A stretch of DNA of 64,000 nt from positions 620,001-684,000 of the forward strand of contig NZ_CP091138.1 in NCBI RefSeq assembly GCF_021582875.1. Direction: 5' to 3'. This document shows, piece by piece, positions 10,699 through 21,052 of the stretch. The position numbers were made by a program, and so were the translations under genes. Below the pieces are notes generated by a model. It was not told the origin of the DNA. It ran no database searches and saw only the letters and a program-made list of their open reading frames with translations. Within the stretch, counting starts at the first letter, position 1. Each line of letters starts with the position of its first letter. The stretch is from Microbacterium sp. KUDC0406. Lineage in GTDB: Bacteria > Actinomycetota > Actinomycetes > Actinomycetales > Microbacteriaceae.

Positions 10699-10772
10699 CG
10701 GGCTGTGGCGCAGCTTGGTAGCGCACTTGACTGGGGGTCAAGGGGTCGCAGGTTCAAATCCTGTCAGCCCGA
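10699..10772 (+). tRNA. tRNA-Pro (anticodon GGG)
   Basis: A 74-base cloverleaf. Acceptor stem CGGGCTG (10699-10705) pairs with CAGCCCG (10765-10771), with A as discriminator. The anticodon stem CTTGA/TCAAG encloses the loop CTGGGGG, giving anticodon GGG, which reads CCC and CCT proline codons. The T arm has GGTTCAAATCC. CCA is not encoded. A TAGGAT -10-like box lies about 40 bases upstream. Its 3' half is duplicated at 21021-21052 and served as an attachment site. Confidence 0.96.
10741..10772 (+). repeat. attL: left copy of the 32-bp direct repeat at the tRNA-Pro 3' end
   Basis: Bases 10741-10772 (AGGGGTCGCAGG...CAGCCCGA) are identical to 21021-21052. This segment spans the anticodon-stem edge, T arm and acceptor strand of the tRNA, the usual crossover target of tyrosine integrases. 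The tRNA stays intact on this side. Confidence 0.9.
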
Positions 10773-10777
10773 CCGAA

Positions 10778-10811
10778 AAGCCCCGATGAGAAGTCATTTT
10801 CATCGGGGCTT
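10778..10811 (+). terminator. hairpin after tRNA-Pro
   Basis: Perfect 12-bp stem, AAGCCCCGATGA pairing with TCATCGGGGCTT, around a 10-base loop, 6 bases after the tRNA. It should end the tRNA transcript. It lies inside the island border, so it came with the island. Confidence 0.75.
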
Positions 10812-10837
10812 CGTCATGTCGGGCGACGGGTTTTTGT

Positions 10838-10954
10838 TGGTCCCCCTCTGGTCCCCTCGCCAAGGAGCCTATGCGTCTCCCGGCGCTCCCGACGGCTGTT
10901 TCGGGTAGCCGAAGGCTCCAGCCTGGGATAAAGGGGACCAAAAGGGGACCAGAG
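10838..10954. repeat. inverted GGTCCCC repeats beside attL
   Basis: CTCTGGTCCCCT at 10846-10857 has its exact reverse complement at 10943-10954, and shorter GGTCCCC-type units lie at 10839-10846 and 10931-10940. They sit in the 275-base stretch (10773-11047) between tRNA-Pro and the MFS gene, which holds no supportable gene. They could be arm-type integrase sites or the leftover end of a lost integrase gene; the sequence does not decide. Confidence 0.5.
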
Positions 10955-11047
10955 CCGCAGGCAGGGATGCACTCCGGCTTCTACATGTCCTGACGCTTCC
11001 AGTTCGTCTGCTCTCGTCGCGGGGACCGCCGTAGACTGCATACACCC

Positions 11048-18206: not shown

Positions 18207-18257
18207 AAACGTCCGTAGAGTCTCAGCACGACACTCGATTGGACGGAGAAACAGACC

Positions 18258-19301
18258 ATGCGGGCCAAAGGAATGACCTACGACACGGGGTTCGTGCGCG
18301 ACGGCAGCAATTCGCGGGAGGTGTTCGACCTGTCACGAGTCCGAGCGGAGCTGGCCATCATCCGGGACGACCTGCACTGCACCGCGGTCCATGTCGTCGG
18401 CAGTGACGCTGATCGCTTGGAGGCCGCTGCCGGGTTTGCCGCAGAACTCGGGATGGAAGTCTGGTTCTCCCCGTACCCGTTGGAACAGACGACCGACCAG
18501 ATCCTCGGCTTCTTCACCGAGTGCGCCGATCGGGCGGAGCGCCTTCGCGCGAAAGGTGCCGAGGTCGTGTTCGTCGCGGGCGTCGAACTGAGCGTCATGA
18601 ACCGCGGATTCATCGACGGCGACGACGTCGATGCGCGGCTCGACGGGCTGCTGGCCGATCCGGAAGGGCGAGAACAGCGCCTCGCCGATGTCAGTCGCGG
18701 TCTCAATGCGTTTCTCGCCGAAGCTGTCGAGCACATCAGGGAGCGCTTTCACGGTCCGGTCACCTATGCCGCGATTCAGTTCGAGGCCGTCGACTGGGAC
18801 CTGTTCGACTTCGTGACCGTAGAGCTCATACGCTCCGCGGCCGTCGCCGACATCTTCCGCTCCGGGGTCCGCACGCTCGTGGCGCAGCACTCCAAGCCGG
18901 TCGCCATCACAGGCTTCGGCACCGCCACATGGCGCGGCGCCGCTGACATGGCTCCGCGCAGCATGGAGATCATCCAGAACGACCCCGCAACCGGGGCGCC
19001 CTCCCGGCTGAGCGACGTGTTCGAGCGCGACGAAGCCGGACAGGCGGAGTACCTCGGCGAGCTTCTGGAGATTTTCGATAGCGAGGGCGTGGACAGCGCG
19101 TTCGTCTTCCTCTTCGCGCTCGACAACCTGCCCCACAGGCCCGGCGGCGACCCTCGCGAAGACCTTGATCTCGCCAGCCTTGGCATCGTCAAAGTCCTCG
19201 AAGACCGAAACGGGATCACTTACCCGCATATGCCGTGGGAGCCCAAGGCTGCCTTCGCCGCCGTAGCCGTGTTCTATGCAGACCGGATGGAGTACGTATG
19301 A
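18258..19301 (+). CDS. TIM-barrel-like protein of a family often labelled abortive infection protein
   Basis: A 347-residue soluble protein with no signal peptide. Repeating strand-helix units (DDLHCTAVHVVG, GMEVWFSPYPLEQTTD, VVFVAGVELSVM, VTYAAIQFEAVDWDLFDFVT, KPVAITGFGTATWRGAAD, VDSAFVFLFALDNLPHR and MPWEPKAAFAA) resemble a glycoside-hydrolase-like TIM barrel, with acidic residues in ...GVELS and a second at the end of a later strand. From memory, actinobacterial homologues of this type carry the name abortive infection protein, but I know of no biochemical proof. It sits in the island, divergent from a TetR repressor, and overlaps the following lipoprotein gene (ATGA), so the two are translationally coupled. 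GGAGAA lies upstream of ATG 18258. Confidence 0.65.
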   Translation: MRAKGMTYDTGFVRDGSNSREVFDLSRVRAELAIIRDDLHCTAVHVVGSDADRLEAAAGFAAELGMEVWFSPYPLEQTTDQILGFFTECADRAERLRAKGAEVVFVAGVELSVMNRGFIDGDDVDARLDGLLADPEGREQRLADVSRGLNAFLAEAVEHIRERFHGPVTYAAIQFEAVDWDLFDFVTVELIRSAAVADIFRSGVRTLVAQHSKPVAITGFGTATWRGAADMAPRSMEIIQNDPATGAPSRLSDVFERDEAGQAEYLGELLEIFDSEGVDSAFVFLFALDNLPHRPGGDPREDLDLASLGIVKVLEDRNGITYPHMPWEPKAAFAAVAVFYADRMEYV

Positions 19302-20032
19302 GCACCCGACTCTTTGCGTTCGCTCTTGTCAGCCTGCTGACAGCAGTCACCCTCACCGCATGCAGCTCGGCCACCGACGTCGACCCCGAGCGTGCGTCAT
19401 TCGCGATCGATGGCGAGGAAGTGACCATTTCGATGGAGTCCAGCGGTGACATCTCATTGCGTCCCGGTGACGTCGACGAGATCGAGGTCACCCGCTGGTT
19501 CACCGGCGGAGGCGACGAGGCGAGTTGGGATTTCACGGGCGATGAACTCACTCTCGCCGTCGAGTGCGGGTTCCTCTCTTCCTGCGAAGTCCGCTATGAG
19601 GTGGTCGTTCCTCGCACAGTTGCTGTCTTCCTTCGCGGATCTAATGCGGATGTACTCGCAACCGGCTTCGAGGCACCGTTGGACATCCGCACAGAGAACG
19701 GCGCCATCATCGTCGAGGACATCGAGGGCGATCTTTCTCTCCGCAGCACCAGCGGCGATCAACAGGCCAAGGGTCTGACGGCTCAGCGCGTCGAAGCTCA
19801 AGCCAGCAGCGGAGCGGTCGACCTCTTCGTCACTGAGGCGCCATCGAGACTCGCTGTCGCGACCGAGAACGGCGCAGTCAGCGTCCAGCTTCCGGATGCG
19901 GCTTACGCTCTATCGGTTCAGACTGACAGCGGTTCGATAGAGAACTCATTCACTGACGACTCTCGCAGTCCACACACCATCGCAGTTACCACCGCGAATG
20001 GTGATATCGCGCTGACTCGCACCGGACCGTAG
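19298..20032 (+). CDS. lipoprotein with DUF4097-like adhesin domain
   Basis: A 244-residue predicted lipoprotein. The signal peptide MSTRLFAFALVSLLTAVTLT ends in the lipobox LTAC, giving a lipidated Cys at about residue 22. The mature part is a regular beta-rich repeat (MESSGDISLRPGDV, TENGAIIVEDIEGDLSLRS, ASSGAVDLFV, TENGAVSVQLPDA, DSGSIENSF and TANGDIALTRTG), the right-handed beta-helix-like pattern of DUF4097 (putative adhesin) proteins. It overlaps the stop of the TIM-barrel-like gene (ATGA), so it should be made together with it and placed on the outer face of the membrane. Its function is not known. Confidence 0.82.
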   Translation: MSTRLFAFALVSLLTAVTLTACSSATDVDPERASFAIDGEEVTISMESSGDISLRPGDVDEIEVTRWFTGGGDEASWDFTGDELTLAVECGFLSSCEVRYEVVVPRTVAVFLRGSNADVLATGFEAPLDIRTENGAIIVEDIEGDLSLRSTSGDQQAKGLTAQRVEAQASSGAVDLFVTEAPSRLAVATENGAVSVQLPDAAYALSVQTDSGSIENSFTDDSRSPHTIAVTTANGDIALTRTGP

Positions 20033-20149
20033 CCGACTACGCGGTGCCCCGGTGTGACCGCATGTCCGGTCACCGCAGCCCCGGCGTGTCACACGCCCGA
20101 CTTCGCTCCGGCCGCCTGCCCCCTCGCGAGGCGTCGTCCCAAACGCGAG

Positions 20150-21020
20150 ATGTCGGCGGGCGACGGTTACAAGTACCTGCTGCGGACAGTCGCGGCCAGC
20201 GACGGCGACAGGTCGCTGTCCACCCCGCTGACGCGTTACTACAATGCCGAGGGCACCCCGCCGGGCCGATGGCTTTGGCGCCGGGGTCGCCACGCTCGGC
20301 AGTGGGCGGATCAGCGCAGGCGATCACGTCTCCGAAGCCCAACTCCAGCTCCTAGTCGGTATGGGCCGTGACCCGATCACGGGGGAACCGCTTGGCCGTG
20401 CGTACCCCGAGTACCGAACCGTGGCCGAGCGGATTGAGGCGCGCACCGAGGCGCTTGATCCATCCCTCGGGCCGGCGTCACGTGCGGAGGCGGTCGTGGC
20501 GATCGAAGCGGAGGAGGCCGAGCGTGGGACGCGACGGGCGGTTGCGGGGTTCGACTTCACGTTCTCGGTCCCGAAGTTCGCGAGCGTGCTGTGGGCGGTT
20601 GCGGATGCCGGGACGCAGACGTTGATCGCCGCCGCGTTCGACCACTACGACAGCCGGGCGGGCGACCCCCATCTGCACACGCACGTTGTCATCAGCAACA
20701 AGGTGCAGACCGTCCTCGATGGCAAATGGCGGTCGCTGGATGGACGGCCGATGCACGTCGCTGTCGTCGCGCTCTCCGAACTGCACGAGGCGGTCTTCGC
20801 GGACCACCTCACCCGAATGCTCGGCGTCTTTGGGAAGCGCGGGATAGAGGCCGCGACCGGAACCCCGCCTTGGCGATCACCGGGGTGCCGGAGGCACTGG
20901 TCAAGGAGTTCTCCACTCGTGCCCGGCACATCGGCGCAGAGACCGACCGACTCATCGTGCGCTACGTCGAGACGCATGGGCGGCGGCCGTCGCCGGCGAC
21001 GATCATGAAGCTCCGCGCCC
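20150..21020 (+). pseudogene. MobF (TrwC-type) relaxase, decayed and cut at attR
   Basis: N-terminal relaxase sequence spread over three frames: MSAGDGYKYLLRTVAASDGD then LTRYYNAEGTPPGRW with the catalytic tyrosine region, next GAGVATLGSGRISAGDHVSE through VPKFASVLWAVADAGTQTLI, then FDHYDSRAGDPHLHTHVVIS with the metal-binding HxHxH, and finally RDRNPALAITGVPEALVKEF to PATIMKLRAQ. Breaks lie near 20265 and 20830. Between TQTLI and FDHYD about 45 residues usual for the family are missing, an in-frame deletion inside the catalytic domain. The sequence then stops at the start of the 32-bp repeat, so the helicase part is gone. An active relaxase is very unlikely. Confidence 0.85.
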
Positions 21021-21052
21021 AGGGGTCGCAGGTTCAAATCCTGTCAGCCCGA
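21021..21052 (+). repeat. attR: right copy of the 32-bp tRNA-Pro direct repeat
   Basis: Identical to 10741-10772 and carries only the 3' part of the tRNA, so it is not a second functional tRNA gene. It marks the right border of the island; chromosomal genes follow. Confidence 0.9.

Follow-up and report, generated by a model that had tools for sequence, protein, structure and literature searches.

A 10.3-kb island at a tRNA-Pro(GGG) gene of Microbacterium sp. KUDC0406, very probably the remnant of a decayed integrative and conjugative element

The island and its setting

The stretch of DNA analysed here, hereafter the window, comprises 64,000 nucleotides of the genome of the actinobacterium Microbacterium sp. 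KUDC0406 (contig NZ_CP091138.1, positions 620,001 to 684,000), which consists of a single contig of 3.61 Mb. In this window a tRNA-Pro(GGG) gene is followed by an island of about 10.3 kb, which carries an exporter, regulators, enzymes and a broken relaxase and is closed on the right by an exact copy of part of the tRNA gene. The island is very probably a decayed integrative and conjugative element (ICE), of a kind with a tyrosine integrase and a TrwC-type relaxase, that had entered tRNA-Pro(GGG) and was later reduced by deletions.

The integration target is the tRNA-Pro(GGG) gene at 10699-10774 on the + strand, identified by ARAGORN, in which both halves are of host type and which is the same tRNA as in relatives with an empty site. 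Thirty-two bases inside it (10741-10772) recur in direct orientation, with zero mismatches, at 21021-21052, the copies being identical and placed as a first-pass annotation of this DNA had claimed. No other 24-mers that recur on the + strand of the window have copies separated by more than ~170 bp; they form local tandems near 6.0-6.2 kb and 21.36 kb. The former (6034-6226) are local direct repeats in which 24-mers occur two to three times within ~170 bp. The next best matches to the 32 bp in the genome are the two other proline tRNAs (CGG and TGG) and, over 22 bp, a tRNA-Met. The G+C fraction is 0.62-0.66 across 14-20 kb and 0.67-0.74 in most of the flanks.

A perfect repeat of tRNA sequence is not proof of a functional pair of attachment (att) sites. 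In fact, the left copy (10741-10772, + strand) sits in a complete 42-bp repeat (10731-10772) that is typical of the ICE family described below and has a single occurrence in the whole genome, at the tRNA, whereas the right copy holds only the last 32 bp of it. The earlier reading of the repeat as an att pair is thus correct as to the 32 bp and falls short as to the extent of the sites.

Immediately after the tRNA gene, at 10775-10983 (+ strand), lies DNA homologous to that found between tRNA-Pro and the integrase gene in an ICE family of the genus, with the integrase coding sequence absent; we refer to it as the left arm. Its identity, over all or part of its length, is 78-93% to several congeneric genomes, designated here by G numbers (G244, G040, G350, G157, G022, G007 and others), and in those named the counterpart is located between tRNA-Pro and a tyrosine integrase gene on the minus strand; in G022 the match stops at the stop codon of an integrase fragment. 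The left arm is present in 20 of 295 genomes, that of KUDC0406 included. The open frame of the family integrase counts 473 codons in G040, and its counterparts in G244, G157 and G350 show 95-100% identity, while G266, G007 and G022 hold only pieces of it. As had been noted from the letters alone, there is no integrase in the island: none of the six matches to Phage_integrase (PF00589) in the genome falls inside it, and tblastn of the family integrase against the window returned nothing at E<=1. The six matches represent five regions, of which three match the family integrase (E<=1e-3, 24-35% identity) and two do not.

At the other end of the island, 20144-21020 (+ strand) is a remnant of a TrwC-type relaxase gene, with PF08751 in pieces, both ends cut, an internal deletion and a broken frame. 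The homology extends over 20144-21023 (0.88 kb) in two blocks, for which the DNA identity is 96% and 90% with G157, and 94% and 87% with G350. Compared with these two genomes, the remnant lacks the 5' end, shows an alignment gap of 126 bp and stops at the junction with the tRNA repeat. The right copy itself (21021-21052, + strand) is a truncated right attachment site (attR), the displaced 3' part of the host tRNA-Pro, without CTGGGGGTCA and without the right end of the family. In G244, G040, G350, G157, G222, G234, G355 and G071 the 32 bp are preceded by a right end finishing in tggacgcCTGGGGGTCA, with a similar arrangement in G223, and CTGGGGGTCA is retained before the 32 bp; in the window, relaxase sequence stands in place of tggacgcCTGGGGGTCA. 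Because relaxase DNA runs straight into the tRNA fragment, the 42-bp repeat is missing its first 10 bp in the right copy.

The truncation acquires significance from the junctions of the relatives in which the host tRNA is split, where host and element have 16 bp in common (CTGGGGGTCAAGGGGT), or 8 bp (CTGGGGGT) in the GGTTA type. This overlap would place the strand exchange in the segment lost from the right copy of the window, and the crossover of the family most likely occurs in the first 10 bp of the 42-bp repeat. Elements of other kinds at the same tRNA (G092, G118, G323, G041, G175) have shorter repeats that begin with CAAGGGG or AAGGGG, near the start of the 32 bp.

Beyond the right copy, a terminator-like hairpin (21053-21106, + strand) constitutes the native right flank, found directly 3' of tRNA-Pro at empty sites. 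When 21021-21200 was compared with 366 congeneric genomes, the matches extended from the end of the tRNA into the hairpin, and a complete tRNA-Pro(GGG) directly before a hairpin of the window type was present in 23 of 29 loci, the KUDC0406 locus excluded; the empty sites that the first-pass annotation had suggested looking for are therefore found in congeners. For five of them (G257, G243, G205, G096, G066) no further downstream copy was listed, and all five carry on the left a homologue of the protein encoded at 9994-10578. The DNA beyond the hairpin varies between genomes, and in G092 6.8 kb of other DNA separate tRNA-Pro from an att copy that is followed by a 94%-identical hairpin. On the basis of the empty sites and of the arrangement in G092, the hairpin is native, the 10.3 kb are inserted and the site has been used repeatedly. 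That the hairpin might be the arm of another element was also considered and rejected, on the sequence of the 420 bases that follow it in G257, G243, G205, G096, G066 and G088, which were inspected by eye and not searched for domains.

Related elements in Microbacterium

The ICE family at tRNA-Pro(GGG) in Microbacterium (G157, G350, G244, G040) has in common with the window the left arm, the relaxase and the location of the att sites; in the window, integrase and coupling protein are absent, and little of the relaxase and nothing of the right end is left. In G157 and G350 the arm and the relaxase are located on a single contig, in the same order as in the window. In G157, in which 46.6 kb lie between the two att copies, the relaxase frame encodes 1194 amino acids with TrwC and AAA_30 domains, and the 20 called open reading frames (ORFs) that were searched include an integrase, a coupling protein, the relaxase, an M23 peptidase, an ArdC-like protein and cargo proteins. 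Matches to TrbL and EccE were weak, under the curated cut-offs, and none to VirB4 was obtained among these 20 ORFs. We call this element an ICE on the grounds of its predicted integrase, coupling protein and relaxase. The scoring of arm, relaxase, cargo and right flank in congeners covers two candidate places per genome among the matches listed, and is thus not a count of occupancy across the genus.

Cargo and neighbouring genes

Between the left arm and the relaxase remnant, the island encodes an exporter of the major facilitator superfamily, of DHA2/EmrB type (526 amino acids, 11048-12628, - strand; PF07690, TIGR00711 above cut-off), an Lrp/AsnC-type regulator with two helix-turn-helix regions (324 amino acids, 12673-13647, + strand; PF13404, PF01037), a TetR-family regulator (193 amino acids, 13955-14536, - strand; PF00440, PF16925) and an HxlR-type regulator (14581-15009, - strand; PF01638). 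These are followed by a protein resembling F420-dependent NADP reductases (216 amino acids, 15007-15657, + strand; PF03807), a CocE/NonD-type (S15) hydrolase (549 amino acids from the first start, 15822-17471, + strand; PF02129, PF08530, TIGR00976 above cut-off) and a second TetR-family regulator (17478-18206, - strand; PF00440). The hydrolase gene may be frame-broken at its 5' end; the piece upstream of it has no Pfam match. A protein of 347 amino acids (18258-19301, + strand), without a match in Pfam or NCBIfam, is related to AcvX (PDB 7y4h, E 3e-122); its relatives are found on actinobacterial plasmids, one that is 78% identical occurs in Rhodococcus qingshengii, and among the matches listed in a search of literature text for AcvX only other subjects were found. 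The last cargo gene encodes a DUF4097 protein (19235-20032, + strand; PF13349), previously noted as a lipoprotein. The gene content first proposed, namely four regulators, a hydrolase, a reductase-like protein and a broken relaxase, is confirmed; the exporters given there in the plural reduce to one, and the 347-amino-acid protein had not been listed.

In congeners, cargo DNA was found, among the matches listed, only as pieces of up to ~1.1 kb: exporter pieces are 66-73% identical in many congeners and short pieces of the TetR region are ~80% identical in a few. A 679-bp stretch with the first TetR gene (13.96-14.54 kb) is 90% identical in G007, far from the tRNA-Pro of that genome, and the HxlR-reductase pair is 67% identical in G270. 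An anti-phage defence island was considered as an identity for the region and rejected, PADLOC having yielded only weak matches to two regulators.

To the right of the island, the start of a YihY-family gene (21317-21425) contains an 18-bp tandem repeat in five in-register copies, coding for a Pro-Glu-rich segment. The amino-acid permease gene after it is divided into two frames (22430-23371 and 23026-23856, the second with PF13520), which may reflect a pseudogene or a sequencing error.

Origin of the island

The integrase-proximal arm and the relaxase remnant belong to one ICE family and stand in the order seen in G157 and G350, in agreement with one of the two origins offered by the first-pass annotation, a relic that lost its integrase. 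In the course of events that we propose, the ICE would have entered tRNA-Pro(GGG) by strand exchange in the anticodon stem-loop; the left junction would have kept a whole tRNA, and the 3' end of the host gene would have been pushed to the right. Later deletions, the number and order of which we infer, would have taken the integrase and conjugation genes, all but a stub of the relaxase, and the right end as far as a point inside the att repeat; the relaxase would thereby have been joined to the tRNA fragment, leaving the arm, the cargo genes and the relaxase stub. Excision by the family's own site-specific recombination would no longer be expected. The island could still be lost if the 32-bp copies underwent ordinary recombination, and an unrelated integrase using the T-arm side of the tRNA might perhaps move it. 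The island would then be an unremarkable example of ICE decay, though a well-resolved one, in which both parts of the element are recognisable and the probable immobilising fusion can be located.

Several observations weigh against this account. No intact family member with this cargo was found, two candidate places per genome having been scored, and so the cargo may have entered separately; the frame breaks may be sequencing errors, and the completeness of the genome is estimated at 96%. The interval between the relaxase and the right att copy of G157 also contains a second integrase and a DprA-like gene, and its 46.6 kb may therefore be composite. Concerning the empty sites, two or more of the 23 (G088 and G128) have an extra att-like copy downstream. 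In addition, among the relatives with the most similar left flank, tRNA-Pro is followed by other DNA in G129 and G276 and by a different hairpin in G325 (a contig of 3.2 kb), so that the best empty sites are found in more distant congeners.

A separate entry of the cargo is the main rival to its assignment to the ICE. According to this explanation the island would be composite: either the cargo (11.0-20.1 kb) was acquired in unrelated events after the ICE had decayed, or a deletion across a tandem array at this tRNA fused two elements. The cargo pieces do match different genomes, the TetR stretch G007 and the HxlR-reductase pair G270, and tandem or nested arrangements at this tRNA are seen in G259, G088, G041 and G234; in particular, in G259 and G088 a further att copy, again next to a similar hairpin, stands ~39 kb and 12.7 kb, respectively, beyond tRNA-Pro and its hairpin, perhaps representing tandem elements. 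However, just upstream of the relaxase, relatives of the ICE (G157, G350, G204, G133) have exporter, TetR-regulator, hydrolase or peptide-biosynthesis-like genes, and cargo of the ICE is therefore expected in that position. We regard a composite origin as unlikely, though it deserves to be kept in mind, and assign 11048-20032 to the ICE as its cargo with moderate confidence.

It is improbable that the island is a still mobile satellite without an integrase, similar to a cis-mobilizable element (CIME), which would be excised by an integrase acting in trans or carried along with an ICE integrating next to it. In favour of mobility are a perfect repeat and an intact tRNA, and the integrases of the G092/G118 type, whose repeats start close to the beginning of the 32 bp, are for that reason possible movers of the island and might use the 32 bp. 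Against such mobility, the right copy is without CTGGGGGTCA and the conserved right-end sequence. The first-pass annotation had also suggested movement in trans and a search of the whole genome for the integrase responsible; an integrase of the own genome was rejected as a mover, because the tyrosine recombinases of KUDC0406 are at most 35% identical to that of the family, which makes movement in trans unlikely, and the likely crossover segment is missing from the right att copy together with the right end.

As to the remaining candidates, a phage or plasmid origin was rejected, since in megablast searches with 10600-21300 the matches listed (14 of 14 and 20 of 25 records) cover the tRNA region only, with one Microbacterium record reaching the left arm. 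The idea that the 10.3 kb belong to a conserved core region stretching from tRNA-Pro to the YihY gene, with a repeat due to chance or gene duplication, which the first-pass annotation had named as the finding that would overturn the island, has a negligible probability: the missing integrase and nothing else speaks for it, and it is contradicted by the empty sites with tRNA-Pro directly before the hairpin, by the ICE homology of arm and relaxase, by the presence in congeners of cargo pieces only, and by the 29 other YihY loci examined, in none of which tRNA-Pro lies within 1.5 kb (0/29).

A spare tRNA in relatives of the element

The decayed ICE of the window has relatives with an unusual arrangement of the target gene. 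Of 366 congeneric genomes, 26 contain an orphan 5' half of tRNA-Pro that is separated from a complete tRNA-Pro(GGG) by a spacer module of ~50 bp, doubled in G244, G227 and G235. Details of the flanks are available for 25 of the 26, and the family integrase is found in the examined flank of 19 of these 25 loci, in some cases partial or 53-58% identical; in the examined flanks of G136, G215, G254, G278, G041 and G093 none was found. The acceptor stems occur in two forms, GGGCTG/CAGCCC and GGGATG/CATCCC. We considered as informative the 15 genomes in which the orphan half and the spare tRNA differ and the displaced 3' half was found, the other 11 of the 26 being uninformative or without a displaced half. 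Judged by eye, in 13 of these 15 (G244, G040, G350, G227, G157, G094, G215, G025, G093, G282, G054, G339, G355) the displaced 3' half pairs with the orphan half and not with the spare tRNA; in G109 and G022 it does not fit the orphan half. In G157 and a small number of further genomes the acceptor stem of the two halves fits, but their positions 27/43 are unpaired. Because the displaced 3' half fits the orphan half, the complete tRNA is most likely borne by the element and the host gene split.

By the same patterns, and again by eye, the complete tRNA-Pro(GGG) is single in 24 of the 26 genomes, while G022 and G136 have two. In G022 tRNA-Pro is split at two sites that both hold a complete copy (C1:3368488-3368651 and C1:3654530-3654682) and lie 286 kb apart on one strand, possibly the outcome of a rearrangement or of nested elements. 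The arrangement is not confined to Microbacterium: of 84 loci of the family integrase found in named genomes, 80 were kept, and with loose patterns (<=6 mismatches) an orphan half plus a full tRNA was seen in 40 of them, a full tRNA alone in 17 and no full copy in 23. This tally overlaps the Microbacterium genomes of the set of 366, and the 40 loci include Leucobacter, Agromyces, Gryllotalpicola, Nocardia and Brachybacterium together with some of the same Microbacterium strains. The element DNA joined to the orphan half (L071 8405-8453; L203, L207, L208, L211) shows by eye a possible small hairpin, aggggttcacccc or agtggtttaccact, the arms of which covary and which is followed by cggcccga, similar to the 3' end of a tRNA; it may be a decayed or att-related mimic of a tRNA.

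We consider it fairly probable that the relic of the window belongs to a widespread actinobacterial ICE family with tRNA-dependent integration, in which the host tRNA-Pro(GGG) would be split in the anticodon stem-loop and not rebuilt, the ICE would supply a complete copy and the host would rely on it. Other proline isoacceptors exist, and the host may therefore not strictly need the GGG copy. The window itself shows no orphan host 5' half to the left of the tRNA, a single 5' half being present in its genome (G000), and no spacer module; it would represent the family in an ancestral or collapsed state, with only one tRNA.

Comparison with known systems

Among phages, the closest likeness is with mycobacteriophage Giles, in which 46 bp identical to 10728-10773 of the window adjoin the integrase gene. 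Giles, however, is a phage, whereas the integrase of the ICE family has no phage counterpart at >=60% identity among 920 records.

Regarding mobile elements of conjugative origin, the absence or disruption of the integrase and of the conjugation module sets the window apart from a functional ICE. The comparison of interest is with CIMEs, the classical representatives of which measure 1.2-13 kb (PMC7563491). The island resembles CIMEs as defined there in its derivation by deletion, here from an ICE (CIMEs derive from ICEs or from integrative and mobilizable elements), with arm and relaxase remnant of one family in order, in cargo lying between att-like sites, in the lack of any intact integrase or conjugation gene, and in its size of 10 kb. 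It differs in its truncated attR, in its location at tRNA-Pro of an actinobacterium instead of streptococcal sites, and in that its mobility by accretion is only putative. CIMEs keep both att sites, while the right copy of the window holds 32 of 42 bp and no right end of the element; since this copy is incomplete, we do not file the window as a CIME and describe it as a decayed ICE, CIME-like in kind, with a truncated attR.

The relatives with a spare tRNA call to mind the tRNA-dependent lysogeny of phages (PMC10865867). They are alike in a short shared tRNA core, in a host tRNA that is not rebuilt from the host 5' half (26/366 genomes; 13/15 informative ones) and in a complete tRNA of the same isotype, tRNA-Pro(GGG), whose placement beside the element arm suggests that it is borne by the element. 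Unlike the phages, the relatives are conjugative, a word absent from that report, their spare tRNA lies ~50 bp inside the left end, the dependence is only putative, and the window has no orphan half. A literature search for ICEs with a spare tRNA, which left subscription journals mostly out of scope, gave, for tRNAs borne by such elements, a single paper, on a Bacillus phage as judged by its title. The ICE family behind the window may be a new variant. If this is true, a mechanism described in phages would extend to conjugative elements, and ICEs of this kind could be hard for their hosts to lose.

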